This document shows positions 1,841 to 19,914 of a stretch of DNA of 64,000 nucleotides, piece by piece. The position numbers and the translations under genes were made by a program. Each line of letters starts with the position of its first letter. The stretch's first letter is position 1. This stretch comes from Rhodospirillales bacterium. Lineage in GTDB: Bacteria; Pseudomonadota; Alphaproteobacteria; ATCC43930; CGMCC-115725. The notes under the pieces were generated by a model that searched no databases, was not told the DNA's origin, and saw only the letters and a list, made by a program, of their open reading frames with translations. Location: positions 1 through 64,000 of the forward strand of contig JAQGIC010000120.1 in assembly GCA_028288725.1 (NCBI GenBank), written 5' to 3'.

Positions 1841-1858
1841 GTCGAATGCTCCCTGCAA

Positions 1859-2172: not shown

Positions 2173-3015
2173 GTGAAACCGGCGGCCTTCGAATATCATA
2201 TGCCGCGGACCGTCGAGGAGGCCGTTGCGATCCTGGCGCGGGTCGCCCCGCTCGACGGCCGGGTTCTTGCCGGCGGACAGACGTTGGTGCCGGCCATGGC
2301 GCTCCGGCTCGCCCGGCCCTCCCATCTCGTCGATATCAATCGTGTCGCCGGATTCGACCGGCTGGACGTGCGGGATGGAATGCTCGAGATCGGCCCCTGC
2401 GTGCGGCATGCGGCGCTCGACCGGTCGGCGGCGCCGGGACCGCTCGGCCGGCTGCTCGGGCTGGTCCAGCCGCATATCGCGCATCATCCGATCCGGACGC
2501 GCGGAACGTTCTGCGGCAGCTTGGCCAATGCCGATGCCGCTTCCGAATGGTGTCTCACCGCCGTTGCGCTCGATGCACGGATCGAGGCGCGCAGCGGGCG
2601 CGGCACGCGAAGCATTCCGGCCGATGCGTTTCTGCTCGGCTATATGACGACATCTCTCGAACCGGACGAATTGCTCGTGAGGGCCCGCCTGCCGCTGCTG
2701 CCCGACGATGCCCGTGTCGGATTTTACGAGTACGCCCGTCGCGCCGGCGATTTTGCCCAGGTCATGGCGCTCGTCACCTATGCCGTTCGCGGCGGCGTGG
2801 TGGCGGCCCCGCGCATCGCGCTGGGCGGCCTCGAATCCCGGCCGCGGCGAATGGCCGGGGCCGAGGCGGCGATTGTCGGGCGCGTACCCGACGCGTTGGC
2901 GTTCCGGTCGGCCGCCGACGCGGCGGCGGACGCACTGGGGCCGACCGAAGATCCCGACTACGCGCGCACGTTGGCGACGACCGCCGTGCTCCGGGCTCTC
3001 GCAGCGGCGGCCTGA
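2173..3015 (+). CDS. Mo hydroxylase FAD-binding (medium) subunit, set 1
   Basis: This 280-aa protein belongs to the CoxM / xanthine dehydrogenase FAD subunit family. It shows the N-terminal FAD loop LAGGQTLVPAM (about residues 35-45) and the second FAD motif TRGTFCGSLANADAASEW (about 110-127). These subunits pass electrons from the iron-sulfur subunit to FAD and on to an acceptor. The start is a GTG with a weak ribosome site. It is the first gene of a run whose subunits follow the order FAD, 2Fe-2S, Mo; the next gene starts 11 nt after its stop. Confidence 0.92.
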   Translation: MKPAAFEYHMPRTVEEAVAILARVAPLDGRVLAGGQTLVPAMALRLARPSHLVDINRVAGFDRLDVRDGMLEIGPCVRHAALDRSAAPGPLGRLLGLVQPHIAHHPIRTRGTFCGSLANADAASEWCLTAVALDARIEARSGRGTRSIPADAFLLGYMTTSLEPDELLVRARLPLLPDDARVGFYEYARRAGDFAQVMALVTYAVRGGVVAAPRIALGGLESRPRRMAGAEAAIVGRVPDALAFRSAADAAADALGPTEDPDYARTLATTAVLRALAAAA

Positions 3016-3026
3016 ATAGGATCTTC

Positions 3027-3494
3027 ATGCACGATATCGCGTTTACCCTCAACGGCCGGCCCTGGAGCCTGCGTGTCGAACCGCGGCGGACCCTGGTCGA
3101 TGCGATCCGCGACGATTGCGGCGCCACCGGCACCCATATCGGCTGCGAGCACGGCGTGTGCGGCGCTTGCACCATCCTGCTCGACGGCGAACCGGTGCGG
3201 TCCTGCCTGATGTTCGCCGTCCAGGCGGATGGCCGCGCGCTGCGAACGGTGGAGGGATTGGAGAAGGACGGCGCGCTGCATCCGCTGCAGCGCGCCTTCA
3301 TCGACCATCATGCGCTGCAATGCGGCTTCTGCACCCCCGGCTTCCTCATGCTCGCCGTGGGCGTGCTCGAGCGGACGCCGAATATCTCCGATGAGGCGCT
3401 GACGGACGTGCTGTCCTCCAATCTGTGCCGCTGTACGGGGTATCAGAACATCGTGCGCGCCGTCCGCGCCGCGGCCGAGGAGATGGCCCCGTGA
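3027..3494 (+). CDS. Mo hydroxylase [2Fe-2S] (small) subunit, set 1
   Basis: This 155-aa protein has the two-domain CoxS architecture. The plant-ferredoxin-like N-terminal domain holds GCEHGVCGACTILLDG plus a further Cys, ligating the first cluster. The C-terminal helical domain holds LQCGFCTPGF and CRCTGYQNIV, ligating the second. It relays electrons from the Mo centre to FAD. ATG at 3027 gives the standard length. Its stop overlaps the GTG of the large subunit (GTGA at 3491), which implies translational coupling. Confidence 0.94.
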   Translation: MHDIAFTLNGRPWSLRVEPRRTLVDAIRDDCGATGTHIGCEHGVCGACTILLDGEPVRSCLMFAVQADGRALRTVEGLEKDGALHPLQRAFIDHHALQCGFCTPGFLMLAVGVLERTPNISDEALTDVLSSNLCRCTGYQNIVRAVRAAAEEMAP

Positions 3495-5833: not shown

Positions 5834-6702
5834 AGCCGCCGGTCTTCGCCTACCACGATCCGCGAAGCGTCGAGGAGGCGGTCGGTCTGCTTGGCCGGCT
5901 TGAAAATACGCGGCTGCTCGCCGGCGGCCAATCGCTGATGCCCATGCTGAACATGCGCTTCGTCTTCCCGGATCACGTGATCGATCTGAACCGGATCGAG
6001 ACGCTGGCGGGCATCGTCCAGGACGCCGAGACCATTCGCATCGGGGCGATGACGCGCCAGCGGGACATTGCGGACAGCGCGCTGGTGCGGGACCGGCTGC
6101 CGCTGCTGACGGAGGCTCTGGCCCATGTCGGCCACCGGCAGACGCGCAACCGAGGGACGATCGGGGGCTCGCTCTGTCATCTGGATCCCGCGGCCGAACT
6201 GGTCGCCGCCGCGGCGAACCTGGATGCGACGATCGAGATCGCCGGGCCGGATGGCGTGCGAACATTGTCCATGGCCGCGTTCCCGCGCGGCTTCATGACA
6301 CCGGCGATCGAACCGGACGAGATGGTGACCGCCGTGCGCATGCCGCTACCGCAGCGCGGGCACGGGTTCAGTTTTATGGAATTCGCGCGCCGTCACGGCG
6401 ATTTCGCCATCGTGTCGGTCGCGGTCCTGCTGGTTCTGGCACCGGACCGCCGGATCGCGCGCGCGTCGATCACGCTGGGCGGCGTCGGCGCGGTTCCGCT
6501 GCGCATGGTCGAGGCGGAGGCTCTGCTGGTCGGCCACGAACCCGGCGCTGCCCTGTTCGAGCGGGCCGCCGAAACCTGCCGGGCGATCGATGCCCTGGAG
6601 GATGCCCAGGTGCCGGGCTGGTATCGCCGACAGTTGGCCGGCGTGCTGATGGCCCGAGCCCTCGCGACCGCCCGGGCGCGTGCGGAAGGAGTATCGACAT
6701 GA
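5830..6702 (+). CDS. Mo hydroxylase FAD-binding (medium) subunit, set 2
   Basis: This 290-aa CoxM-type protein carries FAD loops LAGGQSLMPMLNMR (about residues 28-42) and TRNRGTIGGSLCHLDPAAEL (about 105-125). It begins the second complete hydroxylase set. GTG at 5830 overlaps the stop of the previous large subunit, and its own stop overlaps the ATG of the next gene (ATGA at 6699). It is clearly different from the set 1 subunit (for example LMPMLNMRFVFPDHVIDLNR against LVPAMALRLARPSHLVDINR), so the two sets are diverged, not recent copies. Confidence 0.93.
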   Translation: MKPPVFAYHDPRSVEEAVGLLGRLENTRLLAGGQSLMPMLNMRFVFPDHVIDLNRIETLAGIVQDAETIRIGAMTRQRDIADSALVRDRLPLLTEALAHVGHRQTRNRGTIGGSLCHLDPAAELVAAAANLDATIEIAGPDGVRTLSMAAFPRGFMTPAIEPDEMVTAVRMPLPQRGHGFSFMEFARRHGDFAIVSVAVLLVLAPDRRIARASITLGGVGAVPLRMVEAEALLVGHEPGAALFERAAETCRAIDALEDAQVPGWYRRQLAGVLMARALATARARAEGVST

Positions 6703-7208
6703 CGTCCGTCGCGGTTGGTGACGAAACGGCGATGCGCCGGATCGGCGTGACGGTCAACGGCACGCTTCAAGCCGGCGAGGTGTCCGTCCGCCTGACGCTC
6801 GCCGATTTCCTGCGCCAGGATCTTAAACTGACGGGGACGCATCTCGGATGCGAGCATGGCGTGTGCGGCGCCTGCACCATCCTGCTCGATGGGCGGGCCG
6901 TGCGGGCCTGCCTGCTGTTGGCCGTGCAGGTCGACGGGCACAGCGTGACGACGGTCGAGGGGCTGGCGCCATCCGCCACCGTTCTGCATCCGTTGCAGGA
7001 AGCGTTTTGCGCCCATCACGGTCTCCAGTGCGGCTTCTGTACGCCGGGCATGCTGACGACGCTGGTCGAATTCCTGAAGGATTGCCCCGATCCGAGCGCC
7101 GAGGAGGTGCGTGTCGCCATCTCGGGCAACATCTGCCGCTGCACCGGCTATGACAGCATCGTCGAGGCGACGCTGAGCGCCGCGGCTAATATGCGGGACG
7201 GGTCATGA
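6699..7208 (+). CDS. Mo hydroxylase [2Fe-2S] (small) subunit, set 2
   Basis: This 169-aa protein carries both iron-sulfur domains: GCEHGVCGACTILLDGRAV with a downstream Cys for cluster one, and LQCGFCTPGM plus CRCTGYDSIV for cluster two. An N-terminal extension of about 12 residues precedes the ferredoxin domain compared with the set 1 subunit. ATG overlaps the upstream stop and its stop overlaps the ATG of the large subunit (ATGA at 7205). The coupled order FAD, FeS, Mo repeats that of set 1. Confidence 0.94.
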   Translation: MTSVAVGDETAMRRIGVTVNGTLQAGEVSVRLTLADFLRQDLKLTGTHLGCEHGVCGACTILLDGRAVRACLLLAVQVDGHSVTTVEGLAPSATVLHPLQEAFCAHHGLQCGFCTPGMLTTLVEFLKDCPDPSAEEVRVAISGNICRCTGYDSIVEATLSAAANMRDGS

Positions 7209-9553
7209 CCGCGTCGGGATTTCCAAATTCCCGGGTGATCGGGCACGATGTGGCGCGCGTCGAAGACGAGGCGCTGATCCGAGGCGTCGGTCGGTTTGTC
7301 GATGATATCGTCCTGCCCGGCATGCTTCATGTGGCGTTTGTGCGCAGCCCGCACGCCCACGCCGCGATCCTGGGTATCGACCCGTCCGGCGCGCTCGGGA
7401 TGCCGGGGGTCCATGCCGTGCTGACCCTGGCCGATCTCGCGCCGCACTTGACCGATACGCGACTGGTCGTCGCCATGCCGAGCCCGAGCTATCGGCAGCA
7501 GCTGCATCGCCCGGTTCTGGCCGACCGGGAGGTCGTGCACGTGGGCGAGCCGATCGCGGCGGTTCTGGCCGACAGCCGCTATCTGGCCGAAGACGCGGCG
7601 GCGCTGGTCGATGTGGATTATGACGTGCTGCCGGTCGTGGCCGACTGCGTCGCCGCCCTGGAACCTGGCTCCCCGACCGCCCATCGCGACGCCTCGTCGA
7701 ATCTCGTTGCCGAGATGACGGTGGAATACGGCGATGTGGCGGCCGCGTTCGCGGCCGCGCCCCACCGTTTCCGGGAACGGCTCTGGATCCACCGCGGCGG
7801 CTCCCATTCCATGGAGTGCCGGGGGCTCGTCGCCGTCCATGACGTGCTGGAAGATCGCCTGACCGTCTGGAGCTCGACCCAGATGCCGCATGCCGCCCAT
7901 CGCCTGCTGTGCGACATCATGGGGCTGGGCGAGCGGCAGATCCGCGTCGTGACGCCGGATGTCGGCGGCGGCTTCGGCCCCAAGCTCATCTTCTATCCGG
8001 AGGATGTCGTGGTGGCCGTCGCGGCACGGCTGCTCGGCCGTCCGGTGAAATGGATCGAGGACCGGCGCGAGCATTTCGTGGCGACCACGCAGGAACGCGA
8101 CCAATATTGGGACGTGGAGCTGGCGACCGACGACGCGGGGCGGGTTCTGGGCGTGCGCGGCCTGTTGGTCCATGATCACGGCGCCTGGACGGCGCGCGGG
8201 GTCAACGTTCCGCAGGGCGCCGTTGCGGCCATGCCGCTCGCCTATGTGGTGCCGGCCTACAGCATGGCGATCAAGGCGGCCGCCACGAACAAGGTGCCGG
8301 TCACGCCGGTGCGTGGGGCCGGCCAACCGCAAGGCGTGTTCGCGATGGAGCGGCTGCTGGATAGTGCCGCACGCGCACTCGGCCTTGACCGCGCCGAAAT
8401 CCGCCGCCGGAATCTGGTGCCGGCCGAGCGCATGCCCTATGCCACGCCGATGCGGACACGGGGCGGCATTCCCGTGGTGCTGGACAGCGGCGACTACCCG
8501 AGATGCCAGCAAATGGCGCTGGATCGGGCGGATTGGGCGGGTTTCACGGCCCGGCAGCAGGCTGCCCGGGCCGAGGGCCGTTACATCGGCATCGGCCTTG
8601 CCAATTACGTCGAGGGTACCGGCCGCGGACCCTACGAGCACGTCTCCGTCCGCATCGAGCCGTCGGGGCGCATCTTCGTCGCCACGGGGGCAGCGGCCAT
8701 GGGGCAGAGCACCCAGACCATGCTCGCCCAGATCGTGGCCGAACAGCTCGGCGCCGATATGTCGAATATCAGGGTCGTCACCGGGGATACCGCGGCGGCG
8801 CCGCTCGGCATCGGTGGATCGAACAGCCGGCAGGCCGTGCTGGCAGGAAACTCCGCCCATGCGGCTGCCATCCGGGTGCGCGAACGGGTTCTGGAGGCTG
8901 CCAGCCAGATGCTGGAGGTCGCAGCCGCCGATCTCGAGATCGAGGGACAGCGCGTTCGCCTGAAGGGCGCGGAGGAGGTCGGTCTGACCCTGTCGCAGGT
9001 CGCGCGCGCGGCAGCCGGCCAAGCCGGTTTCTCGCTGCCCGGTCAGGCCGGTCCCGGCCTGGCGGCCAGCGAGGAACTCGTCATCGACGCGATGAGCTAT
9101 GCCAATGGCAGCGCGGTCGTCGAGGTCGAGGTCGATATCGGCACCGGCGCCATCACCATCCGCAATCTCGTTTTCGCACATGATTGCGGTCGCGCGCTGC
9201 ACCCGCGCATCGTCGACGGCCAGCTGATGGGCGGCATCGCGCACGGTATCGGCAATGCGCTTTACGAATTCATGGCTTATGACGAAAACGCCCAGCCGGT
9301 GACCACGACCCTGGCCGAATATCTCCTGGTCACGGCGACCGAGATGCCGCCGGTGACCATCCTGCATATGGAAAGCCCGACGCCGCTCAACCCGCTCGGC
9401 ATCAAGGGCGTCGGCGAGGCGGGCGTCATCCCGATCGGGGCCGCCGTCGCATCCGCCGTCGAGCATGCGCTGTCGTCCTTCGGCGTGCGGGTCAACCGCC
9501 TGCCGCTTTCGCCGGTCGATCTGCTTGGGCTGCTGAATGCCGCGACGGCTTGA
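7205..9553 (+). CDS. Mo hydroxylase molybdopterin-binding (large) subunit, set 2
   Basis: This 782-aa xanthine oxidase family large subunit shows VARVEDEALIRGVGRFVDD at the N-terminus, DVGGGFGPKLIFYPEDV for the Moco pocket, VRGAGQPQGVFAMERLLD, and the catalytic-glutamate motif GIKGVGEAGV. The RGAG pocket sequence differs from the APGR of set 1, which suggests a different substrate or ring position. No CO dehydrogenase CSFR motif is present. It closes the six-gene coupled block; a 166-nt gap follows. Confidence 0.93.
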   Translation: MTASGFPNSRVIGHDVARVEDEALIRGVGRFVDDIVLPGMLHVAFVRSPHAHAAILGIDPSGALGMPGVHAVLTLADLAPHLTDTRLVVAMPSPSYRQQLHRPVLADREVVHVGEPIAAVLADSRYLAEDAAALVDVDYDVLPVVADCVAALEPGSPTAHRDASSNLVAEMTVEYGDVAAAFAAAPHRFRERLWIHRGGSHSMECRGLVAVHDVLEDRLTVWSSTQMPHAAHRLLCDIMGLGERQIRVVTPDVGGGFGPKLIFYPEDVVVAVAARLLGRPVKWIEDRREHFVATTQERDQYWDVELATDDAGRVLGVRGLLVHDHGAWTARGVNVPQGAVAAMPLAYVVPAYSMAIKAAATNKVPVTPVRGAGQPQGVFAMERLLDSAARALGLDRAEIRRRNLVPAERMPYATPMRTRGGIPVVLDSGDYPRCQQMALDRADWAGFTARQQAARAEGRYIGIGLANYVEGTGRGPYEHVSVRIEPSGRIFVATGAAAMGQSTQTMLAQIVAEQLGADMSNIRVVTGDTAAAPLGIGGSNSRQAVLAGNSAHAAAIRVRERVLEAASQMLEVAAADLEIEGQRVRLKGAEEVGLTLSQVARAAAGQAGFSLPGQAGPGLAASEELVIDAMSYANGSAVVEVEVDIGTGAITIRNLVFAHDCGRALHPRIVDGQLMGGIAHGIGNALYEFMAYDENAQPVTTTLAEYLLVTATEMPPVTILHMESPTPLNPLGIKGVGEAGVIPIGAAVASAVEHALSSFGVRVNRLPLSPVDLLGLLNAATA

Positions 9554-9719: not shown

Positions 9720-10166
9720 ATGGCAACTGCCGTGTCCCAGACCAATCCGACGCGCGACAGCGATCCCCTGGATCGTCTGCGCGACGAACTGGCGCGGCCG
9801 CCCTACCACGCGTTCCTACGCCCGCACGCCGAGCGCGCTGATCCGGAATCCGGCACGGTGGTGATCGCCCTGCCATTCCGGCCCGAATTCCGCCGCGCCC
9901 CCGACGGGCCCGGCTATCATGGCGGGATCATCGCCGCCCTGATCGATCTGGCGGCCCATGCCGCCGTGGCGGTCAAGATCGGGCGGATGGCGCCGACGAT
10001 CGATCTGCGCATCGACTATCTGCGGGTCGCTTCCGACACCGACCTTCGCGCCACGGCCAAGCTGCTGCGGGCCGGCCGATCGATCGGCCTCGCCGATGTC
10101 GAGGTGACGGACGGCGATGGAAGAATGATCGCGGTGGGCAGGGGCACGTTCAGCACGAGGGAATGA
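9720..10166 (+). CDS. PaaI-like hotdog thioesterase
   Basis: This 148-aa protein has the PaaI/YdiI hotdog pattern: GPGYHGGIIAALIDLAAHAAV (family motif with HGG and the central helix) followed by TIDLRIDYLRVA and the closing GRGTFS strand. Such enzymes hydrolyse aromatic or short acyl-CoA thioesters in the cytoplasm. An AAGGA site lies 8 nt before the ATG. Its place between two hydroxylase sets suggests that a CoA thioester intermediate, or its clearance, belongs to the same pathway. Confidence 0.85.
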   Translation: MATAVSQTNPTRDSDPLDRLRDELARPPYHAFLRPHAERADPESGTVVIALPFRPEFRRAPDGPGYHGGIIAALIDLAAHAAVAVKIGRMAPTIDLRIDYLRVASDTDLRATAKLLRAGRSIGLADVEVTDGDGRMIAVGRGTFSTRE

Positions 10167-10209
10167 ATGTCCTTCGCTGCCATCCCGCAGCGCAGACCAA
10201 ACGGAACAA

Positions 10210-10237: not shown

Positions 10238-10309
10238 GCAGGGTAGCATAGCGTTCACGCCGTCGCCGGTCCTGCCGGTCCGCTCGGCAGAAGAAGGGGG
10301 AAGACCGGC

Positions 10310-10801
10310 ATGCCTCAGATCACCGTCAACGGTAAGAAGCACAAGGTCGCCGCAGCGCCCGACACGCCGTTGCTCTATGTCCTGCGCAACGAACTCGATC
10401 TCCACGGACCGAAATTCGGTTGCGGTCTGGGGCAATGTGGCGCCTGCACCGTCCATCTCGACGGCGACCAGGTGCGCTCGTGCAGCGTTCCCGTCTCGGC
10501 GGCTGCGGGCAAGGCGGTCACGACCCTGGAAGGGCTCGGCGGGGAGTACGCGAAGGCCCGCTCCGTGGCGGTGCTGGAATCGCATCTGCACCCGCTGCAG
10601 CAGAGCTTCATCGACGAGCAGGCGGCCCAGTGCGGGTACTGCACGAACGGCATGATCATGGCCGCCGCCGCCCTGCTCGCGAAAACTCCGCAGCCGACCG
10701 ACGGCGATATTCGCGAAGCCCTGGCCGACAATCTCTGCCGGTGCGGCTCTCATCTCCGAATTCTGCGCGCGATCAAAAGCGCAGCGAAGCATATGGCTTG
10801 A
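10310..10801 (+). CDS. IorA/NicA-like [2Fe-2S] subunit, third Mo hydroxylase
   Basis: This 163-aa protein has two iron-sulfur domains: FGCGLGQCGACTVHLDG with a following CSVP cysteine, and AQCGYCTNGMIM with CRCGSHLRIL. GLGQCGACTVHLDG and CGYCTNGM are typical of the isoquinoline 1-oxidoreductase / nicotinate dehydrogenase small subunits, not of CoxS. A GGGGGAAG ribosome site precedes the ATG. It has no leader peptide of its own; if exported it would travel with the Tat-tagged large subunit encoded 11 nt downstream. Confidence 0.92.
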   Translation: MPQITVNGKKHKVAAAPDTPLLYVLRNELDLHGPKFGCGLGQCGACTVHLDGDQVRSCSVPVSAAAGKAVTTLEGLGGEYAKARSVAVLESHLHPLQQSFIDEQAAQCGYCTNGMIMAAAALLAKTPQPTDGDIREALADNLCRCGSHLRILRAIKSAAKHMA

Positions 10802-10812
10802 GGGGCGACACC

Positions 10813-13137
10813 ATGGACGGCAGGCTCAACGAACCCCATCTCGGACGGCGCCATTTCCTGAAGGGCGCCGGCCTCCTCGCCATCAGCTTCAGCCTGAGCG
10901 GAGCCATGCCGGGCCTTGGCCGCGCGGCGCCGGCCGCGCCCAAGCTCGGCCCCTACGGCCCGGCCGCGGACGAGCTCGATTCCTGGATCGCGATCGATAC
11001 TGCCGGCTTCGCCACGCTCTATACCGGCGTCTGCGAATTAGGAACCGGCAGCCATACGGCGCTGCTCCAGGTCATGGCCGAGGAACTCGACATCGCGTTC
11101 GACCATGCGAAGCTCCAGCCCCCCGACACGAACCGTACCCCCGACCAGTTCGTCTCGTCCGGCAGTCGGTCGATCGCCTATCACGCGGTGCCGATCCGGC
11201 AGGCCGCGGCCGAGGCCCGGCACGCGCTCGTCGCCATGGCTGCCGAGAAGTTCAAGGTTCCGGCGGAACAGCTCGTGGTGGAGAACGGCGTCGTCTCGGT
11301 CACGGGTGCGCCGGGCAAGCATGTCTCTTATGGGCAGCTCATCGGGGGGCGGCAGTTCGACCTCAAAGTGACCGGTGCCGTCAAGCCGAAGGACCCGAGC
11401 CTGCACAAGATCGTCGGTACGCCGGTCCACCGCATCGACATCCCAGGCAAGGTGACCGGCAGCTTCACCTTCGCGCAGGACGTCAAAGTCCCGGGCATGC
11501 TGCACGGGCGGGTGGTCCGGCCGCCGGCGCACGGCGCCTCGGTGATCGAGATCGACGAAAGCTCGATCGCGCATCTGCCGGGCGTGGTGAAGGTCGTGCG
11601 CAAGGCGGACCTGATCGGCGTCGTCTGCCATCGCGAGGAAGAGGCGATCGAGGCCGCTCGTCAGCTGAAGGTGTCGTGGTCGGCCTGGGCCGACCTGCCG
11701 GATATGAAGGATATCCACCAGAAGCTCCGGGAGGTTCCGATCTATGCCCCGGGCATTCCGGCGAAATATCCCGGTGGGGTGATCGCCAAGGACGGGGATG
11801 TCGAAAGCGCCCTGACCGGGGCGGCCAAGGCGATCAAGGCGACCTACGAAAGTCCGTATCATCTGCACGGCTCGATCGGACCGTCCTGCGCCGTTGCCGA
11901 CGTTCGGCCCGATGGCGTCACCATCTGGTCGGCGACGCAGACGGCCTACGGGCTGCGCGAGGCGGCGGCGAAATTCCTCGGGCTGGCCAACGACAAGGTC
12001 CGCCTGATCTTCGCCGAAGGCGCCGGCTGCTACGGGCAGAACGGCGCCGACGACGTGGTGATCGATGCGCTCGTCCTGTCGCAGGCCGTGGGCAAGCCCG
12101 TCCGTGTCCAATGGATGCGGGCGGATGAGACCGGCTGGGAAACCTACAAGACGGCGCGCGTCACCGATGTGCGCGGCGGGCTCGACGCCGATGGCAAGAT
12201 CGTTGCCTGGGAAAGCAATGCCTGGGGCTTCTCCGGCTATTCGCGCCCGGAATATCACGAGCCGAAACAGGGCGGCGAACCGGGCAGCCTGGTGACGGCG
12301 CAACTCGCCGGCTGGACCACGCCCGGCCTCGAGGAGGGCTTCAACGGCATCGCGCTCGAGAGCGCGCCCTATTATACCGTCGGCAGTAAGCACGTCGTGT
12401 TCAACTATCTGGGCCCGGCCTCGCACCGGCAAGGTCCGATCCGGATGCGTGTCGGCTCCATGCGCGGCGTCGGTTCGCCGGATAATGTGTTCATGGTCGA
12501 ATCCTTCATCGACGAGTTGGCCGCCGCCGCCGGGGCCGACCCGGTCGAGTTTCGGCTGAAGCATCTGTCCGACCCCCGCACCATCGCGGTCGTGAAGGCG
12601 GCGACCGAGCGTGCCGGCTGGCAGCCGCGTCCGGCGCATTCCGCTTCGGCCGAGAACGGCGACATCCGCACCGGGCGGGGCATCGCGCTGTTCGGCGGCG
12701 GCAAGGAAACGCGCATCGCCTCGATCTTCGAGGTCGAGGTCAATCGCAAGAGCGGCGCCATTCGCGTCAAGAAGGTCACGGTTGCCCATGATTGCGGGCT
12801 GATCGTGAATCCGGACGGCGTCCGAAACCAGATCGAGGGCGGCGTCATCCAGGGGATCAGCCGCGGTCTCATGGAGGAAGTCACATTCGACCGTTCGCGG
12901 GTGACGAGCCTCGATTGGGCGAGCTATCCGATCATCACTTTCCCCGACGTGCCCGACGAGATCGATATCGTTCTGCTCAATCGTCCGGATCTGCCGGCGG
13001 CCGGCGTCGGCGAAGCCTCGACCAAGAACGTCTGGGCCGGCATCGCCAATGCCGTGTTCGACGCGACCGGGGTCCGCCTGCGCCGCCTGCCGTTCACGCC
13101 GGAACGCTTCAAGGAGGCCCTGGCCAAGCAGGCGTGA
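10813..13137 (+). CDS. IorB/NicB-like molybdopterin subunit with Tat-like leader
   Basis: This 774-aa large subunit begins with a leader containing GRRHFLKGAG, a hydrophobic stretch and an Ala-rich cleavage region (about residues 1-42), consistent with Tat export. The Moco pocket reads GAGCYGQNGADD instead of VGGGFG, and the late motif is GVGEAST with the catalytic Glu. This arrangement is that of IorB and NicB-type enzymes, which hydroxylate N-heteroaromatics and pass electrons to cytochromes, not to FAD. Unlike NicB it ends without any CxxCH haem domain, and no cytochrome gene is adjacent, so the electron acceptor is unknown. Confidence 0.9.
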   Translation: MDGRLNEPHLGRRHFLKGAGLLAISFSLSGAMPGLGRAAPAAPKLGPYGPAADELDSWIAIDTAGFATLYTGVCELGTGSHTALLQVMAEELDIAFDHAKLQPPDTNRTPDQFVSSGSRSIAYHAVPIRQAAAEARHALVAMAAEKFKVPAEQLVVENGVVSVTGAPGKHVSYGQLIGGRQFDLKVTGAVKPKDPSLHKIVGTPVHRIDIPGKVTGSFTFAQDVKVPGMLHGRVVRPPAHGASVIEIDESSIAHLPGVVKVVRKADLIGVVCHREEEAIEAARQLKVSWSAWADLPDMKDIHQKLREVPIYAPGIPAKYPGGVIAKDGDVESALTGAAKAIKATYESPYHLHGSIGPSCAVADVRPDGVTIWSATQTAYGLREAAAKFLGLANDKVRLIFAEGAGCYGQNGADDVVIDALVLSQAVGKPVRVQWMRADETGWETYKTARVTDVRGGLDADGKIVAWESNAWGFSGYSRPEYHEPKQGGEPGSLVTAQLAGWTTPGLEEGFNGIALESAPYYTVGSKHVVFNYLGPASHRQGPIRMRVGSMRGVGSPDNVFMVESFIDELAAAAGADPVEFRLKHLSDPRTIAVVKAATERAGWQPRPAHSASAENGDIRTGRGIALFGGGKETRIASIFEVEVNRKSGAIRVKKVTVAHDCGLIVNPDGVRNQIEGGVIQGISRGLMEEVTFDRSRVTSLDWASYPIITFPDVPDEIDIVLLNRPDLPAAGVGEASTKNVWAGIANAVFDATGVRLRRLPFTPERFKEALAKQA

Positions 13138-13190
13138 CGGCGGCCGGGATGGCCCGGCATTTAAAGGTATTCTGCGACAGAGGGGGCGCG

Positions 13191-14090
13191 ATGAAGCTAG
13201 CGCATCATGATCGTTACGACTATTCGCCCATCACCGAACGGCCGGATTTCGACTGGCCGGGCGGCAAGCGTCTGGCGTTTTATCTGGCACTCAACGTGGA
13301 ACATTTCGGTTTCGGCGGCGGGCTCGGCCATACGCCGACGGCGCTCGGACCGCCGCCGGATCCGCGAAACTACGCTTGGCGCGACTATGGCCTGCGCGTC
13401 GGGATCTGGCGGATCTTCGACCTGGCGGAGCGGCTCGGCCTTCCGCTGTGTCACCTGATCAATTCGTCGATCTACGAGCGCTATCCGCAAATCGTGGCGC
13501 GCATCAAGGCTCGGGGCGACGAGGTGGTCGGGCATGGCCGCACCAACTCGGAACGGCAGGCCGACCTGGACGAGGCCGGCGAGGCCGAACTCATCCGCGA
13601 GGCGACGGCGGTTCTGACCCAGGCCCACGGCACCCCGCCGGGGGGCTGGATGGGGCCGTGGATTTCCGAGAGCCTGGCGACGCCGGATCTGCTGAAGGAG
13701 GCCGGCTACTCCTACCTGCTCGACTGGCCGGCTGACGATCAGCCGTTCTGGATGCGGACGCGGTCGGGGCCGATCTTGTCGGTGCCATATCCGATCGAGA
13801 TCAACGACAGCCCGACGATGCTGAGCCGCATGCAGTCGGCGACCGACTTCGGTCAGATGATCGTGGATCAGTTCGAGACGATGCTGGAACTGTCCGAGGA
13901 GCGGCCGCTCGTGTGCGGGGTGTCGCTGCATACCTTCGTCGTCGGCCAGCCGTTCCGGCTCGCGCAACTCCGCAAGGCGCTTACCCACATCATGGCGCAT
14001 CCGGCGCGCGATCGCGTGTGGTTCACCCGACCGGGCGATATCGCCGCCTTCGCGCGCGGTCTGCCCGCCGGAATCATATCGGGAAGCTAG
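13191..14090 (+). CDS. Polysaccharide-deacetylase-fold hydrolase (PuuE/allantoinase-like)
   Basis: This 299-aa protein has the NodB-like fold seen in PuuE allantoinase and cyclic imide hydrolases: LAFYLALNVEHFGFG replaces the usual TFDD metal motif, EVVGHGRTNSE supplies a metal-ligand His, GWMGPWISES is the third motif, and GVSLHTFVVGQPFR is the final His motif. Enzymes of this branch open lactam or imide rings or release amides, which would suit a product of ring hydroxylation. GAGGGGG lies before the ATG. There is no signal peptide, so it should act in the cytoplasm. Confidence 0.8.
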   Translation: MKLAHHDRYDYSPITERPDFDWPGGKRLAFYLALNVEHFGFGGGLGHTPTALGPPPDPRNYAWRDYGLRVGIWRIFDLAERLGLPLCHLINSSIYERYPQIVARIKARGDEVVGHGRTNSERQADLDEAGEAELIREATAVLTQAHGTPPGGWMGPWISESLATPDLLKEAGYSYLLDWPADDQPFWMRTRSGPILSVPYPIEINDSPTMLSRMQSATDFGQMIVDQFETMLELSEERPLVCGVSLHTFVVGQPFRLAQLRKALTHIMAHPARDRVWFTRPGDIAAFARGLPAGIISGS

Positions 14091-14132
14091 CGTGCCTCCT
14101 GGATATGCGCTTCCTGCTCACGAGGATGAATG

Positions 14133-15122
14133 ATGACGAAGCTGACCGTCAGCCTTGCCGGCTGCGACTACGACCGGACTCGGGCGATCTTCGACGGGCG
14201 CGTGCAGATCAAGGGCTGCGATACGATCCCCGTGGCGATGTCGCCGGAGGAGGCGTTCCATCGGGCGTTCCGCTTCCAGGAGTTCGACATCACCGAGCTG
14301 TCGCTGTCGAACTACATGAACGTCACGGCGAAGGGCATCGGCCATTACGCGGCCATTCCGGTCTTTCCGTCGCGGCTGTTCCGGCATTCGTCGATCTATA
14401 TCCGCGGCGACCGGGGCATCGAGAAGCCGGAAGATCTCAAGGGCAAGGTCATCGGCGTTCCCGAATACCAGATGACCGCCGCCGTCTGGATCCGCGGCAT
14501 CCTGCAGGACGAATACGGCATCCGGCCGTCGGACATGCGCTGGCGTAACGGCGGACTGGAACAGCCCGGGCGCGAGCAGAAGGTGAAGCTCGACCTGCCG
14601 GAGGGTGTCGAGCTCCAGGCGATCCCGAGCACTGAAACGCTGGCGCAGCATCTGGACGACGGCAGGATCGACGCTTTGATCACGGCACTTGCGCCCTCCT
14701 GCTTCAAGAAGAACCCGCAGGTCCGCCGCCTGTTTCCCGATTACCGCGCCGCCGAGGAAGAGTATTACCGGCGAACCGGCATCTTCCCGATCATGCATGT
14801 CGTCGGCATTCGCAAGCGCCTGCTGGAACAGCATCCATGGCTCGCGGTGAATACATACGTCGCCTTTCTCGAGGCGAAGGCCCTCTGCTATCGCGACCAG
14901 GAGAAGATCGGCCATCTCTTCACCACGCTGCCCTGGCCGGTCGACGAACTGGAGCGGGCGCGCAGTCTGATGGGCCCGGATTTCTGGAGCTACGGCGTCC
15001 AGCAGAATACCAGGGAGATCGAGGCGATTACCCGCTACGCCTTCGAGCAGGGCCTGAACGCCCGCCGCCTGACGGCCGAGGACCTGTTCGTTCCTTCGAC
15101 CTTCGATCTTGCGAAGGTCTGA
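14133..15122 (+). CDS. 4,5-dihydroxyphthalate decarboxylase-like protein
   Basis: This 329-aa protein closely follows the 4,5-dihydroxyphthalate decarboxylase (Pht5) pattern: YDRTRAIFDGRVQ near the N-terminus, FDITELSLSNYM, IPVFPSRLFRHSSIYI, GKVIGVPEYQMTAAVWIRG and FPDYRAAEEEYYRRTGIFPIMH. The fold is that of a periplasmic binding protein, but there is no leader peptide, in line with a cytoplasmic enzyme. The second of two adjacent ATG codons (14133) has GAGG at 7 nt. The context suggests decarboxylation of a hydroxylated aromatic or heteroaromatic acid; a non-enzymatic binding role is the alternative. Confidence 0.8.
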   Translation: MTKLTVSLAGCDYDRTRAIFDGRVQIKGCDTIPVAMSPEEAFHRAFRFQEFDITELSLSNYMNVTAKGIGHYAAIPVFPSRLFRHSSIYIRGDRGIEKPEDLKGKVIGVPEYQMTAAVWIRGILQDEYGIRPSDMRWRNGGLEQPGREQKVKLDLPEGVELQAIPSTETLAQHLDDGRIDALITALAPSCFKKNPQVRRLFPDYRAAEEEYYRRTGIFPIMHVVGIRKRLLEQHPWLAVNTYVAFLEAKALCYRDQEKIGHLFTTLPWPVDELERARSLMGPDFWSYGVQQNTREIEAITRYAFEQGLNARRLTAEDLFVPSTFDLAKV

Positions 15123-15236
15123 AGACCGGAGAGATCGACGCCCGAGACCGGGGCAGCGGATGCCTGCCCATGCTGCTTGCCCGAGCGAGGACGAGATGGA
15201 AGACGTGATCGGATATTGCCCGTCGGATCGAGCAGC

Positions 15237-16586
15237 ATGAACGGCCGCCCGCAGATCGACCTGGGCGATCTCATCGAGAGCCAGCGGCTCGGGCGCTTCG
15301 CGATGATCCTGATGGCCTGGGCCTCGATGACCATGTTCATCGAAGGGTTCGAGATGCAGCTGGTCGGCTATGCCGCGCCGGCCATGATCAAAGCGCTGCA
15401 TGTCGACAAGGCGAGCTTCGGCTCGATCTTCGGCGCCGGCAATTTCGGCTATATGCTGGGCGCCCTGTTGCTGAGCAGCCTCGGCGACCGCCTCGGGCGC
15501 CGCCGGCTGATCCTCTTCGGCGTCTTCCTGTTCAGCATCTTCACCTTGGCTGCCGCCTACGGCAGCTCCCTCCTGGAATTGTCGGTCTTGCGCTTCGTCG
15601 CCGGGATCGGACTGGGCGGCGCGGTGCCGAATGCGATCGCGCTGACCGTGGAATATGCCCCGCGCGGCACCAAGGCGACACGCATCGCGCTGCTCTATGT
15701 CGCCTACACGCTCGGCGGCGTCGCGGCCGGCCTGCTGTCCGCGAGACTGCTGTCGGACTATGGCTGGACGATCATCTTCCAGATCGGCGGCTGGGGCGGG
15801 CTGGCGATGGGTGTGCTTCTGCTCGCCTTTCTTCCCGAATCCGCGCGCTTCCTGGCCCAGCGCCGCCCGGACGACCCGGCGTTGCGACGTATCGTCCAGC
15901 GCATGCGACCGGGCTTGGTGCTTCCGGCCGATGCGCAGTTCTCCGTCGCCGAGGAACCGGTACGGCGCGTACCGGTCGCGGCGCTGTTCCAGGACGGGCG
16001 CAGGCCGGTCACGCTGCTGCTCTGGCTCGCCTACATCACCGGCATCATGGCGCTGCAATTTATGACGAGCTGGCTGCCGACCCTGATCGCCGGCACCGGC
16101 ATCTCCGTCTCGCTCGCCGTCTTTACCGCATCGCTGTTTCACGTCGGCGGCACGATCGGCAATGTCTCGGTCGGTTGGTTGACCGATCGCAAGGGCATCC
16201 GAACCATCGCCCTCGGCTTTCTGGTTGCCGTCCCGGTCGTCGCGATCATGGGTCCCGCCAGCACGTCGGTGCCGCTGCTGATGGCAACGGTTCTCACGGC
16301 CGGCTTCTTCATTGTCGGCTCGCATAACGGCCTGAACGCCGTCGCCGGCATCATCTACCCAACCTGGATGCGGTCGACCGGGGCGGGCTGGACGACCGGC
16401 GTCGGCCGAATCGGCTCGATCATCGGTCCGGTCCTGGGCGGCTTCCTGATCTCGCTCGACCTGCCGATCTCGCTGTTGTTTCTCTGCGTGACCGTACCTG
16501 TGGCCATATCTGCCGGCGCCATGGGGCTGCTCTCCCGCCATGCCGCCGGTCGGGCCGTCAGGGAACCGGCGAGCGTCGGCTCGTAG
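15237..16586 (+). CDS. MFS transporter, aromatic acid:H+ symporter type
   Basis: This 449-aa membrane protein has about 12 hydrophobic segments. It shows the acidic TM1 motif FIEGFEMQLVGYAAPAM, SLGDRLGRRRLILFG between TM2 and TM3, and VSVGWLTDRKGIRTIALG in the second half, all as in the AAHS family (PcaK, BenK). ATG at 15237 is chosen since it begins the typical N-terminal helix; the frame is open for 20 more codons upstream. It probably imports the substrate of the upstream enzymes. It ends 4 nt from the convergent GntR gene. Confidence 0.85.
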   Translation: MNGRPQIDLGDLIESQRLGRFAMILMAWASMTMFIEGFEMQLVGYAAPAMIKALHVDKASFGSIFGAGNFGYMLGALLLSSLGDRLGRRRLILFGVFLFSIFTLAAAYGSSLLELSVLRFVAGIGLGGAVPNAIALTVEYAPRGTKATRIALLYVAYTLGGVAAGLLSARLLSDYGWTIIFQIGGWGGLAMGVLLLAFLPESARFLAQRRPDDPALRRIVQRMRPGLVLPADAQFSVAEEPVRRVPVAALFQDGRRPVTLLLWLAYITGIMALQFMTSWLPTLIAGTGISVSLAVFTASLFHVGGTIGNVSVGWLTDRKGIRTIALGFLVAVPVVAIMGPASTSVPLLMATVLTAGFFIVGSHNGLNAVAGIIYPTWMRSTGAGWTTGVGRIGSIIGPVLGGFLISLDLPISLLFLCVTVPVAISAGAMGLLSRHAAGRAVREPASVGS

Positions 16587-16590
16587 CGTG

Positions 16591-17289
16591 TCAGTGCGGT
16601 CCGCTGTCCTGAATCAGCTTCAAGCGGGCGCGCAGGGCTTCCTGGATATGGGTCCGCGCCAGGGCCTCGGCCTGGGCGGCGTCGCGCGCGGCGATCGCCG
16701 CCAAAATCCCGCCATGCTCCCGCCCCGCCGTCGGCGGGCGCCCCGCGACGCTGTAGGTCGTGATGCCGAGCAGGGCGATCGAGTCCTGCAGTTCTTCCAA
16801 CGCATTCTGCAGATAGCGATTGCGGGCGGCTCGGACGATCCCCCGGTGAAACAGGCGGTTGAGCCGCGCCATTTCGGCGGGCCCCCGAGCTTGTTCGAAA
16901 GCCGCTTCCAGATCCGCCAGGGCATCGATCTCGGGCGGCGAGGCATGTTGCGCCGCCAGGCGGGCGGCCGCGCCTTCGAGGATCTCCCGCATCGCATAGA
17001 GTTCCAGGATTTCCGCCATGTCGAGCCGGCGGACGATCAACCCCTTGGCGCCGCCCGGTTCGACGAACCCCTTGGCCTGCAAGCGGCCGAAGGCTTCGCG
17101 GACCGGCGTGCGGCTGACCTTCAGTTCCCGGGCGATTTCTTCCTCGCGCAGCCGATCGCCGGGACGATAGCGCCCGGCCTGCAGCGCCTGCCGCAGCGAG
17201 CGGAAGACCGCCTCGCCCAAGGGCAGGCCTCCCTCGAGCGTCTCCAGTTCCAACTTGGGCGGCGGATCGTTCGGCACGCGTCTTGTCAT
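16591..17289 (-). CDS. GntR-family regulator with FCD domain
   Basis: This 232-aa protein has a winged helix at about residues 25-85 (GDRLREEEIARELKVSRTPV and REAFGRLQAKGFVE) and a helical FCD ligand-binding domain at about 95-225 (AEILELYAMREILEGAAARL, FHRGIVRAARN, HGGILAAIAARDAAQAEAL). FCD regulators usually respond to organic acids. It diverges from tcuA, and a candidate operator lies over the tcuA promoter, so control of tricarballylate use is the simplest reading. It could also act on the convergent hydroxylase cluster. Confidence 0.88.
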   Translation of the reverse strand: MTRRVPNDPPPKLELETLEGGLPLGEAVFRSLRQALQAGRYRPGDRLREEEIARELKVSRTPVREAFGRLQAKGFVEPGGAKGLIVRRLDMAEILELYAMREILEGAAARLAAQHASPPEIDALADLEAAFEQARGPAEMARLNRLFHRGIVRAARNRYLQNALEELQDSIALLGITTYSVAGRPPTAGREHGGILAAIAARDAAQAEALARTHIQEALRARLKLIQDSGPH

Positions 17290-17337
17290 CCCAATCCCGT
17301 CATCTGACCACGGACATCAAGCATGGCACCCGTCAGC

Positions 17338-17373
17338 TTGACAACGGTATTCACCTGTATACAACAGTACACA
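17338..17373 (+). promoter_or_regulatory. tcuA promoter with candidate GntR operator
   Basis: TTGACA (17338-17343) is followed at 16 nt by TACAAC (17360-17365). Over the second hexamer lies an inverted repeat, TGTATAC (17356-17362), AACA, GTACACA (17367-17373), matching at 6 of 7 positions. TGTATAC-type half-sites are usual for FCD-type GntR regulators, and the divergent gene encodes one. Repression by occlusion of the -10 region is inferred. Confidence 0.5.
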
Positions 17374-17432
17374 ATATGGATCACGCGGCGGACGAGGGGC
17401 CTCAACCGGGCGGCCGTAACGGGGGAGGGAGC

Positions 17433-18830
17433 ATGGTCGATCCTATGAAGCGGTGGGACGTGCTGGTCGTCGGCGGCGGCAATGCCGCGCTGTGCGCCGC
17501 CATTTCGGCGCGCCGAACCGGGGCTTCGGTCCTGGTGGTCGAAGCGGCACCGAAATTCTATCGGGGCGGCAATACCCGCCACACACGCAACATGCGCTGC
17601 GCCCATGACAGTGCGACGGGGACCCTGACCGGACCCTATACCGAAGAGGAATTCTGGGACGACCTCCTGCGCGTCACCGGCGGCGAAACCGACGAACAGC
17701 TCGCTCGCTTCATGATCCGCGAGTCCAAGGAGATGCTGATCTGGATCGCCGAGCAGGGGGTACGCTTTCAGCCGTCGCTTGGCGGCACGCTCAGTCTCGG
17801 CCGCACCAACTCGTTCTTCCTGGGCGGCGGCCGGTCGATGCTCAATACGCTCTATCTCACGGCCGAGCGCCTGGGCGTGGAGGTGCTCTACGAGTCGCCG
17901 GTCGTCGATTTCGATATCCAGGACGGCACCTTCCGCTCCGCGACGATCGAGCGGGGCGGCGAAAGGGTGACGATCGCCGCGGCGGCGCTCGTGGCCGCCG
18001 CCGGCGGCTTCGAGGCCAACATCGAATGGCTCAAGGAATATTGGGGCGAGGTGGCCGAGAATTTCCTCATCCGCGGCACCCCGTACAATCGCGGCTCGAT
18101 CCTGAAGCTGCTGCTCGACAACGGCGTCGAACGGATCGGCGATCCGACCCAGTGCCACGCCGTCGCGATCGATGCGCGTGCGCCGAAATTCGACGGCGGG
18201 ATCATAACGCGGCTCGACTGCGTCGTCTTCGGCATCGTCGTCAATAAGCATGCACAGCGTTTCTACGACGAGGGCGAGGATATCTGGCCGAAGCGCTATG
18301 CGATCTGGGGCCGCTTGGTTGCCGCCCAGCCGGATCAGATCGCCTATATCCTGTTCGATGCACCCTCGCTGGAAATGTTCATGCCCTCGCTGTTTCCGCC
18401 GATCGCGGCCGGGAATATCCGCGAACTCGCCGGCAAGCTCGGGCTGGACGCGGAGGCCGTGCAGGCGACGGTCGACAGCTTCAACGCAGCAGTCCGACCG
18501 GGCACCTTCGATCACACGATCCTCGACGATTGCCGCACGGAAGGATTGACGCCGCCCAAGTCTCACTGGGCGCGCCGCCTCGAGACGGCGCCGTTCTATG
18601 CCTATCCGGTGCGCCCCGGCATCACCTTCACCTATCTCGGCACGCGCGTGGACCGGGACGCGAGGATGCTCATGAACACCGGAGCCCCCGCAGGGAACAT
18701 GTTCGCGGCAGGCGAAATCATGGCCGGCAACGTACTGGGGCGCGGTTATGCCGCCGGCATCGGCATGACCATCGGCAGCGTGTTCGGACGTATCGCGGGA
18801 CGGGAGGCGGCGGCAAATGCACGCAACTGA
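17433..18830 (+). CDS. tcuA: Tricarballylate dehydrogenase, FAD-dependent
   Basis: This 465-aa flavoprotein of the fumarate reductase/succinate dehydrogenase flavoprotein family starts at an ATG with GGGAGGGA upstream. The dinucleotide fold VLVVGGGNAALCAAISARR is at about residues 10-28. RGGNTRHTRNMRCAHD and the C-terminal GEIMAGNVLGRGYAAGIG are hallmarks of TcuA. The enzyme oxidises tricarballylate to cis-aconitate and gives its electrons to TcuB, encoded by the next gene with a 14-nt overlap. No tcuC citrate-type transporter is adjacent. Confidence 0.88.
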   Translation: MVDPMKRWDVLVVGGGNAALCAAISARRTGASVLVVEAAPKFYRGGNTRHTRNMRCAHDSATGTLTGPYTEEEFWDDLLRVTGGETDEQLARFMIRESKEMLIWIAEQGVRFQPSLGGTLSLGRTNSFFLGGGRSMLNTLYLTAERLGVEVLYESPVVDFDIQDGTFRSATIERGGERVTIAAAALVAAAGGFEANIEWLKEYWGEVAENFLIRGTPYNRGSILKLLLDNGVERIGDPTQCHAVAIDARAPKFDGGIITRLDCVVFGIVVNKHAQRFYDEGEDIWPKRYAIWGRLVAAQPDQIAYILFDAPSLEMFMPSLFPPIAAGNIRELAGKLGLDAEAVQATVDSFNAAVRPGTFDHTILDDCRTEGLTPPKSHWARRLETAPFYAYPVRPGITFTYLGTRVDRDARMLMNTGAPAGNMFAAGEIMAGNVLGRGYAAGIGMTIGSVFGRIAGREAAANARN

Positions 18831-19914
18831 TACTCTGGCCGAAGCCGACCGCCTGATGACGGTCTGCAATTCCTGCCGCTATTGCGAAGGTCTGTGCGCT
18901 GTGTTTCCGGCGATGGAGGCCCGCCGTTCCTTCCTGGATGGCGACCTCAACTACCTGGCCAATCTCTGCCATGGTTGTGGGGCCTGCTACTACGATTGCC
19001 AGTTCTCGCCACCGCACGAATTCAACGTCAATGTTCCCAAGGTTCTGGCCGAAGTGCGGGCGGAGTCCTACGCGGCTTATGCCTGGCCCCCGGCCGCGGC
19101 CGGCTTGTTCCGGCACAATGGCCCGGTGATTGCCGGCAGCGCGGCGCTCAGCATCGCACTCTTCTTGCTGGGGTTCGTCGGCTGGTCTGATCCGGCCGCC
19201 CTCTGGACGAGCGGGGCTGGGGCCGGCGCTTTCTATCGCCTGATGCCGCATAGCGCGATGGCGGCGCTGTTTGGCGCGGCCTTCCTCTACGCAATCCTTG
19301 CGCTTGCGCTCGGCGTCCGGCGCTTCTGGTCCGACATCGGCGACGCGAATGAGCCGATGCCGGACGCTGTCTCGATCTGGCAGGCGGTAAAGGACGCGGG
19401 ACGCCTGCGCTATCTCGATGGCGGCGGGGCGGGCTGCATGAATGAGGACGACCGGCCCGCCGACGGCCGGCGCCATGCCCATCACATGGTCTTCTACGGC
19501 TTCCTGCTGTGCTTCGCCTCGACGTCGGTCGCGACGCTCTATCATTATGTCGGTCGCGAGGCTCCCTATGCCTGGTATGATTTGCCTGTCCTGCTGGGCA
19601 CGCTCGGCGGGCTCGGCCTGGTCGGCGGTACCGCCGGCCTCTATCGGGCGAAGCGAACGCGCGATCCGGCGGTGCTGGACGCGAAGCGCTTCGGTATGGA
19701 TGTGGCGTTTCTCGCCATGCTGTTCCTGACCGGTCTTTCGGGGCTGGCCCTGCTCGTGCTGCGCGACACGGCCGCGATGGGCATCCTGCTGGCGCTGCAT
19801 CTGGGTATCGTGTTCAGCCTGTTCATCACGATGCCCTACGGCAAGTTCGTGCATGGGATTTACCGCTTCGTGGCGCTGGTCCGCTACGCCTGGGAGCAGC
19901 AGGAGCATCGGTGA
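18817..19914 (+). CDS. tcuB: TcuB/CitB iron-sulfur membrane protein
   Basis: This 365-aa protein has two cysteine clusters near the N-terminus, CNSCRYCEGLCAVFP (about residues 17-31) and CHGCGACYYDCQF (about 50-62), that bind 4Fe-4S centres. About six membrane segments with several His residues follow (HAHHMVFYGFLLC, YHYVGREAPYAWYD), as expected of a haem-bearing quinone-reducing module. In Salmonella TcuB reoxidises FADH2 of TcuA and feeds electrons to the quinone pool. GGGAGG lies upstream of the ATG. Confidence 0.88.
   Translation: MHATDTLAEADRLMTVCNSCRYCEGLCAVFPAMEARRSFLDGDLNYLANLCHGCGACYYDCQFSPPHEFNVNVPKVLAEVRAESYAAYAWPPAAAGLFRHNGPVIAGSAALSIALFLLGFVGWSDPAALWTSGAGAGAFYRLMPHSAMAALFGAAFLYAILALALGVRRFWSDIGDANEPMPDAVSIWQAVKDAGRLRYLDGGGAGCMNEDDRPADGRRHAHHMVFYGFLLCFASTSVATLYHYVGREAPYAWYDLPVLLGTLGGLGLVGGTAGLYRAKRTRDPAVLDAKRFGMDVAFLAMLFLTGLSGLALLVLRDTAAMGILLALHLGIVFSLFITMPYGKFVHGIYRFVALVRYAWEQQEHR

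Follow-up and report, generated by a model that had tools for sequence, protein, structure and literature searches.

A candidate pyridine-4-carboxylate degradation cluster with a PuuE-like putative imide hydrolase and a decarboxylase-family protein in a Rhodospirillales bacterium

INTRODUCTION

Which compound is broken down where an allantoinase-like hydrolase and a decarboxylase-like protein are encoded side by side behind three molybdenum (Mo) hydroxylases? This question is raised by contig JAQGIC010000120.1 of a Rhodospirillales bacterium (GCA_028288725.1), of which positions 1 to 64,000, here called the window, were analysed, with gene assignment covering 1-19914. The gene for a PuuE-like protein (13191..14090, + strand, 299 amino acids, ATG start) is followed after 39 bases by that for a protein of the 4,5-dihydroxyphthalate decarboxylase (DHPD) family (14130..15122, + strand, 330 amino acids, ATG start); both genes are real and adjacent, as the initial annotation had proposed, and relatives occur in many genomes. 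We propose that the cluster degrades a pyridine-4-carboxylic acid via citrazinate to tricarballylate, with the PuuE-like protein as an imide hydrolase, a reading based on comparative sequence analysis to which we assign a probability of roughly 0.6. Loci, genomes and contigs carry L, G and C numbers below, and the three Mo-hydroxylases of the window are called sets A, B and C.

RESULTS

The PuuE-like protein

The PuuE-like protein aligned with PuuE allantoinase 3cl6 (E 3e-30), and its AlphaFold model (predicted local distance difference test score 90.9) had 3cl6 as its best match in the PDB (template modelling scores 0.81/0.80, 27% identity). An allantoinase was rejected, as the protein scored 119.4 bits against TIGR03212, far under the family cut-off of 424.6, and the same genome has a separate, genuine PuuE allantoinase (L002, 499.6 bits); allantoin, one of the substrates first suggested for it, is thus unlikely. 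At least 535 relatives were confirmed in genome contigs, and the subfamily carries the annotation 'polysaccharide deacetylase'. A sugar deacetylase of the NodB/CE4 type was also rejected, with PF01522 at 20.2 bits against a gathering threshold of 23.1 and with NVEHF (residues 35-39) at motif 1, which is of the TFDD type in sugar deacetylases. The initial description of NVEHF as degenerate holds only against those enzymes; the motif is normal for its own subfamily, with N35 and E37 each kept in 97% or more of 78 rows, and true PuuE carries NYEEG at this place. The protein is probably of a ring-opening cyclic-imide hydrolase type and not a textbook PuuE.

The DHPD-like protein and its orthologues

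The solved 4,5-dihydroxyphthalate decarboxylase 9jp7 matched residues 2-327 of the DHPD-like protein (E 7.3e-97, 327.6 bits), whose N-terminus begins right on the aligned domain with no signal peptide visible by eye, confirming the resemblance that had been noted. Relatives of DHPD are often annotated as ABC substrate-binding proteins; a periplasmic binding protein was rejected here on the full-length match to an enzyme and the lack of a visible signal peptide. Nothing in the sequences compared points to periplasmic ligand binding by this protein or to polysaccharide activity of its neighbour. A literature search on DHPD structure returned no mechanism paper by title.

Among 385 genomes of the class, orthologues at 62-66% identity were found in nine genomes besides our own. 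Seven of these ten genomes (DHPD at 62% or more) also hold a PuuE-like gene at 60% identity or more, the other three being one family; as a loose comparison, such a PuuE-like gene occurs in 4 of 146 related genomes, our own included. All nine neighbourhoods outside our genome carry a Mo-hydroxylase, TcuA, PyrC or PyrD gene. L194 (G411) shows TcuA followed by DHPD, amidase, reductase, ligase, set A and part of set B; a Rieske oxygenase gene flanks this row at its TcuA end, and a PuuE-like gene (70%) lies 31 kb off on the same contig. The DHPD of L188 (G420) lies with set B, an amidase, TcuA and an XRE regulator, and a set-B-like Mo subunit directly follows DHPD in L193 and L195. The orthologues of L189-L192 (62-64%) lie near a Mo-hydroxylase and, by eye, apparent nitrile hydratase and aldehyde dehydrogenase genes, a setting that perhaps belongs to a cyanopyridine route.

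The same genome carries a phthalate operon on contig C86, consisting of a Rieske oxygenase, a reductase-like frame (by eye), a dihydrodiol dehydrogenase homologue (58% to that of Polaromonas CJ2) and a DHPD that is 47% identical to the window protein. Phylogenetic analysis of 26 DHPDs put the window protein together with its nine orthologues from L186-L194 in a supported 10-row clade (100/98). The C86 protein fell in a second supported clade of five rows (including L200, L226, L227 and L230) with the phthalate-operon proteins of Polaromonas, Massilia and Thalassospira and one Cupriavidus protein whose context differs; the DHPD of Sphingobium lay outside both. A phthalate decarboxylase was rejected for the window protein on this different clade and on the operon elsewhere; because that operon has its own DHPD, dihydroxyphthalate, as first suggested, is an unlikely substrate. 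According to an excerpt of PMC13040137, the Comamonas DHPD also accepts 4-hydroxyphthalate as a side substrate. The DHPDs of L226 (Polaromonas), L227 (Massilia), L228 (Sphingobium) and L230 (Thalassospira) lie in plasmid regions, and nadC (quinolinate phosphoribosyltransferase) was seen within 6 kb of DHPD in these four of five plasmid regions, L229 being the fifth; it may be an antimetabolite guard, because phthalate resembles quinolinate.

Neighbourhoods of PuuE-like genes

The best 80 of the at least 535 PuuE-like relatives had their neighbourhoods examined, all 80 of them. A neighbour was counted when its match spanned at least 50% of the reference protein at an identity of at least 55% (XRE), 48% (Mo-hydroxylase A or B), 33% (TcuA-like), 50% (ligase, reductase), 30% (amidase), 44% (CoxG) or 35% (DHPD). 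The XRE regulator was found in 9 of the 80 loci, Mo-hydroxylase A or B in 13, a TcuA-like gene in 13 (with TcuB in 4), an acyl-coenzyme A (CoA) ligase in 12, an NADPH-reductase in 13, PyrD in 4, an amidase in 14, a thioesterase in 3 and CoxG in 3. Any of six core groups (XRE, Mo-hydroxylase, TcuA, ligase, reductase, PyrD) was present in 21 loci, and below 60% PuuE-like identity in one of 40 (L046). A ligase, reductase or PyrD accompanied TcuA in 10 of 13 loci, compared with 7 of the 67 without TcuA (Fisher p 2.5e-6), and XRE in 8 of 9 loci, compared with 9 of the 71 without it (p 6.7e-6); these p-values are guides only, because the loci are related and the contigs of unequal length. TcuAB at 62-77% identity lie inside the PuuE-like locus in L008, L018, L041 and L043. 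Of the four related genomes in which the PuuE-like gene reaches 60%, three also encode the ligase (at least 63%), and the fourth (G145, L039) is of the PyrDK type.

DHPD genes several kb from the PuuE-like gene were found in two of the 80 loci (L009, 37%; L022, 58%). At L069 9977-11734, from a betaproteobacterium, a DHPD fragment (38% over 124 residues, at the contig end) stands right after the PuuE-like gene (57%), the only other side-by-side case among these loci; it is too short for the 50% coverage rule and is not included in the count of two. Adjacency of the two genes is thus rare.

Contig C21 and the split pyrE

Contig C21 of the same genome holds a ligase (60%) and a reductase (61%), both best matches to genes of L018, side by side with an amidase. 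This amidase is 64% identical to that of L008 and 53% to that of L194; it is not the top match to the L018 amidase, which has a higher-scoring counterpart (42%) on C127. C21 starts in the 3' end of pyrE (orotate phosphoribosyltransferase; 95% to residues 163-224 of PyrE from the sister genome G001), and the window starts in a pyrE 5' end cut by the contig end (1..113, - strand; 89% to residues 5-41). No pyrE over the cut-off was found in our genome (G000), and all six other genomes searched have one. The two contigs thus appear to begin in opposite ends of one pyrE. From the 121 missing residues, about 0.36 kb probably separates them, and genes for the ligase, reductase and amidase are likely to follow just past the left end of the window. 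Besides bordering the cluster here (1-113), pyrE is doubled in L186 (4465-7030) and adjoins a TcuA-like gene (37%) in G004 (L140).

Pyrimidine enzymes in related clusters

L023, L039, L041 and L046 carry PyrD (over the cut-off in L041, the others being 77-85% identical to it) together with a PyrK-like partner. No ligase was found in the fetched stretch of L039, L041 or L046; L023 has both ligase and PyrD. Another PyrD, of class 2 and over the cut-off, is present in all four genomes, indicating that the cluster copy is an extra one. L186 (G345) has in a row PyrK-like, PyrD (63% to L041), PyrE, PyrC, a second PyrE, CoxG and DHPD. L188 has a Mo-hydroxylase of the set-B type (58, 65 and 60% for the flavin adenine dinucleotide (FAD), FeS and Mo subunits), electron-transfer flavoprotein genes (by eye), DHPD, PyrD2, CoxG, amidase, TcuA, PyrC (417 bits, cut-off 293) and the XRE regulator; genes at the loci were simple longest-frame calls, which may be wrong, as with a false frame over pyrD2 and coxG in L188. 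G420 and G345 each have another PyrC over the cut-off, and no PuuE-like match at 1e-40 was found in either.

Plasmids in other lineages

Plasmid pDP3 of Alicycliphilus denitrificans (Betaproteobacteria) carries, in order, CoxG, ligase (60%), thioesterase (58%), reductase (58%), PuuE-like (70%), XdhC, amidase (36%), XRE (63%) and a Mo-hydroxylase whose Mo subunit is only 35% identical to set B. Plasmid pLDW-10 of Arthrobacter crystallopoietes (Actinomycetota) carries a ligase (56%), a reductase (56%), two PuuE-like genes (34%, 28%), a Mo-hydroxylase, a CoxG-like gene and an asparaginase; no amidase match was found in this region. The hydroxylases vary and the lower part is retained, a pattern that a single trunk fed by different acids would be expected to show.

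Other genes of the window cluster

Next to pyrE lie genes for a CoxG-like Mo-hydroxylase accessory protein (148..780, - strand), resembling genes annotated 'carbon monoxide dehydrogenase subunit G' or SRPBCC, and for the XRE-type helix-turn-helix regulator (893..1858, - strand), whose orthologues are 59-70% identical in the 9 loci and 63% on pDP3, the pDP3 one being annotated as a helix-turn-helix regulator; neither protein of the window had an NCBIfam hit. Sets A (2173..5833) and B (5830..9553), both on the + strand, comprise FAD, [2Fe-2S] and Mo subunits, the Mo subunits being assigned by family and the others by position and homologues only. A PaaI-type hotdog thioesterase (9720..10166, + strand; TIGR00369 61.7 bits, cut-off 36.6), homologues of which accompany a ligase and a reductase in L015, L018, L043 and pDP3, precedes set C (10310..13137, + strand), with [2Fe-2S] and Mo subunits. 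All three sets were assigned by family, and none reaches an equivalog cut-off. The set C Mo-hydroxylase (10813-13137) has a twin-arginine-like leader, RRHFLKG (by eye), and no FAD subunit was seen in this set, in both of which sets A and B differ; with its export-type leader, set C could serve a dicarboxylate branch.

Downstream of the DHPD-like gene are a major facilitator superfamily transporter nearest to aromatic acid/H+ symporters (15237..16586, + strand; TIGR00895 337 bits, under the cut-off of 418.6), a GntR/FCD regulator (16591..17289, - strand; PF07729 and PF00392 above cut-offs) divergent from tcuAB, the FAD-dependent tricarballylate dehydrogenase TcuA (17433..18830, + strand; NF006130 708 bits, cut-off 369; TIGR02485 586, cut-off 372.6) and its electron-transfer partner TcuB (18817..19914, + strand; equivalog TIGR02484 454 bits, cut-off 246.6; subfamily model NF011607 467, under 524). 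With TcuA and TcuB over these family cut-offs, tricarballylate is a probable intermediate.

DISCUSSION

From the observed gene content, family scores, co-localisation, paralogue controls and DHPD clade, we infer the following substrates and step order. The Mo-hydroxylases would hydroxylate isonicotinate at C2 and C6 to citrazinate, much as an excerpt of PMC4548258 describes Mo-dependent 2,6-dihydroxylation in the isonicotinate catabolism of Mycobacterium sp. INA1. The acyl-CoA ligase and NADPH-reductase of C21 would then activate and dearomatise citrazinate to 2,6-dioxopiperidine-4-carboxyl-CoA, from which the thioesterase would release the free acid. The PuuE-like protein, as a putative 2,6-dioxopiperidine-4-carboxylate hydrolase, would open this cyclic imide to tricarballylate monoamide, and the C21 amidase would free ammonia to give tricarballylate; ring opening and deamidation of 2,6-dioxopiperidine-4-carboxylate yield the tricarballylate carbon skeleton. 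TcuA and TcuB would oxidise tricarballylate to cis-aconitate, which would pass on to central metabolism.

Citrazinate has no carboxyl to spare, and the DHPD-like enzyme must therefore act on a dicarboxylate; we give even odds to its being a hydroxypyridine-dicarboxylate decarboxylase. By deduction, cinchomeronate (pyridine-3,4-dicarboxylate) is the only vicinal pyridine dicarboxylate that reaches citrazinate by hydroxylation and the loss of one carboxyl. In such a feeder, a Mo-hydroxylase would add OH at C6 of cinchomeronate, and the DHPD-like protein would strip the carboxyl para to the new OH, leaving 2-hydroxyisonicotinate. The intermediate, 6-hydroxycinchomeronate, is the aza-analogue of 4-hydroxyphthalate. 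The choice of cinchomeronate is the weakest part of the explanation and is put forward tentatively, at somewhat less than even odds.

The initial annotation suggested that the two proteins could act in tandem on a hydroxylated ring, removing a carboxyl and opening the ring after the three hydroxylases. It was right that proteins of imide-hydrolase and decarboxylase types lie among Mo-hydroxylase genes, and wrong on the order and the substrates. The neighbourhoods place dearomatisation by CoA ligase and reductase, or by PyrDK, between hydroxylation and opening, and the tandem order is rejected because, by deduced chemistry, a reduction step is needed there; decarboxylation would belong to a feeder branch ahead of these steps.

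In citrazinate (1-deaza-orotate), a CH takes the place of ring N1 of orotate, and 2,6-dioxopiperidine-4-carboxylate relates to dihydroorotate as citrazinate does to orotate. On this likeness, PyrDK is assigned to the reduction, and PyrC or the PuuE-like protein to the ring opening. It is conceivable, if doubtful, that citrazinate breakdown is built from varied parts: here ligase, reductase and PuuE-like protein, in relatives a second PyrDK (dihydroorotate dehydrogenase) and a second PyrC (dihydroorotase), with a DHPD-type decarboxylase opening the route to pyridine-3,4-dicarboxylate and pyrE perhaps guarding pyrimidine synthesis from the look-alike, much as nadC may act near plasmid DHPDs.

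Several points weigh against the proposed citrazinate route. The chemistry after citrazinate is modelled on the account of Kretzer, Frunzke and Andreesen in 1993, in which Mycobacterium sp. INA1 reportedly takes isonicotinate via citrazinate, a CoA ester and tricarballylate; our literature search, beyond whose reach most subscription journals lay, found no gene-level papers on isonicotinate or citrazinate breakdown. Among the 80 PuuE-like loci, 59 show none of the six core groups; 13 of these are shorter than 8 kb and 35 reach at least 15 kb, so that many truly have no pathway genes nearby, and even at 60% PuuE-like identity or more, only 20 of 40 loci have any core group. DHPD-family genes occur in only three of the 80, of which that of L009 lies outside the window clade and that of L069 is a fragment. 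The PuuE-like genes of L014, L016, L017 and L021 (66-69%) stand beside hydantoinase A/B-type genes (families tested on L014), which is another use of the subfamily, and in G024, G029 and G037 the ligase is present (65-68%) and no PuuE-like gene reaches 60%. Beta-oxidation-like clusters on Burkholderia and Aminobacter plasmids (L224, L225), with CoA transferases and a sigma-54 activator, likewise contain ligase and reductase relatives (47-52%), and this pair alone is thus no marker of the pathway. Furthermore, the reductase falls under the cut-off of its best family and the PyrK-like proteins under those of their models, L026 and L194 encode divergent TcuA-like proteins that reach the NF006130 cut-off and miss that of TIGR02485, and no TcuA match was found in the 28.9 kb read of pDP3.

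Four other explanations were weighed. The feeder could be quinolinate or another hydroxypyridine dicarboxylate, with the DHPD-like protein in a second pathway merely sharing the operon. Biochemical precedent exists in quinolinate dehydrogenase and 6-hydroxyquinolinate decarboxylase, the latter being the title subject of a paper cited in PMC6346535, and the apparent nitrile hydratase and aldehyde dehydrogenase genes of L189-L192 (by eye) would suit it; however, 6-hydroxypicolinate cannot reach citrazinate or tricarballylate by these steps, and the DHPD orthologue lies inside the TcuA/amidase cluster in L188 and L194, which makes this explanation unlikely. Alternatively, the cluster could degrade a pyrimidine carboxylate, the Mo-hydroxylases making orotate from pyrimidine-4-carboxylate and PyrDK, PyrC (or the PuuE-like protein) and the amidase leading to aspartate. 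PyrC, PyrD, PyrK and PyrE do recur in or beside some clusters, and the window cluster borders pyrE, but such a pathway leaves no role for TcuA/TcuB, the acyl-CoA ligase, reductase, thioesterase or DHPD-like protein, and we regard it as improbable. An allantoinase or hydantoinase standing in the operon by chance is an equally improbable reading of the PuuE-like protein: PuuE is its nearest solved relative by sequence and fold and its 66-69% relatives adjoin hydantoinase A/B-type genes, whereas its 119 bits are far under the family cut-off of 424.6 in a genome with a PuuE of its own, and the genes assigned in 1-19914 include none for urate or ureides. An ordinary phthalate-pathway decarboxylase is highly improbable for the DHPD-like protein, given that, for all its 327.6 bits to the solved DHPD, the C86 operon has its own DHPD (47%) that groups with plasmid phthalate DHPDs and not with the window protein, and that no Rieske oxygenase is among the assigned genes.

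If the citrazinate route is correct, it would supply genes for an aerobic pyridine-carboxylate pathway known to us only from enzyme work, decades old, and would assign a function to the subfamily that carries the label 'polysaccharide deacetylase' and to DHPD relatives often annotated as ABC substrate-binding proteins; pyrimidine-biosynthesis enzymes would have been recruited for look-alike catabolism. Isonicotinate is a product of isoniazid hydrolysis, according to an excerpt of PMC10199920, and the route would thus bear on the fate of that drug.

Compared with known systems, the PuuE-like protein shares with PuuE allantoinase (3cl6, TIGR03212) the fold, the motif-1 Glu and the aligned HG of GHGRTN/SHGYRW, and it differs in the 27% identity of the fold match, the score of 119 bits against 424.6 and the true PuuE elsewhere in the genome. 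The DHPD-like protein agrees with 4,5-dihydroxyphthalate decarboxylases (9jp7; Polaromonas and Massilia phthalate operons) in family, length and lack of a visible signal peptide, whereas it belongs to a separate clade and its neighbours are Mo-hydroxylases and TcuA, not a phthalate dioxygenase. As in tcuA/tcuB tricarballylate utilisation, both members of the window pair pass family cut-offs, but the nearby transporter is closest to aromatic acid symporters, suggesting that tricarballylate is made inside the cell. The UK21 quinolinate system resembles the proposed feeder in that a vicinal pyridine dicarboxylate is reportedly hydroxylated and then loses one carboxyl (by deduction, para to the new OH); it leads to 6-hydroxypicolinate, and the likeness drawn here is one of chemistry. 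The isonicotinate route of strain INA1 shares Mo-dependent 2,6-dihydroxylation with the window cluster, and its reported CoA activation, reduction and tricarballylate fit the genes found here, to which a PuuE-like putative imide hydrolase and a DHPD-like putative decarboxylase would be added, with PyrDK and PyrC as alternatives in relatives.

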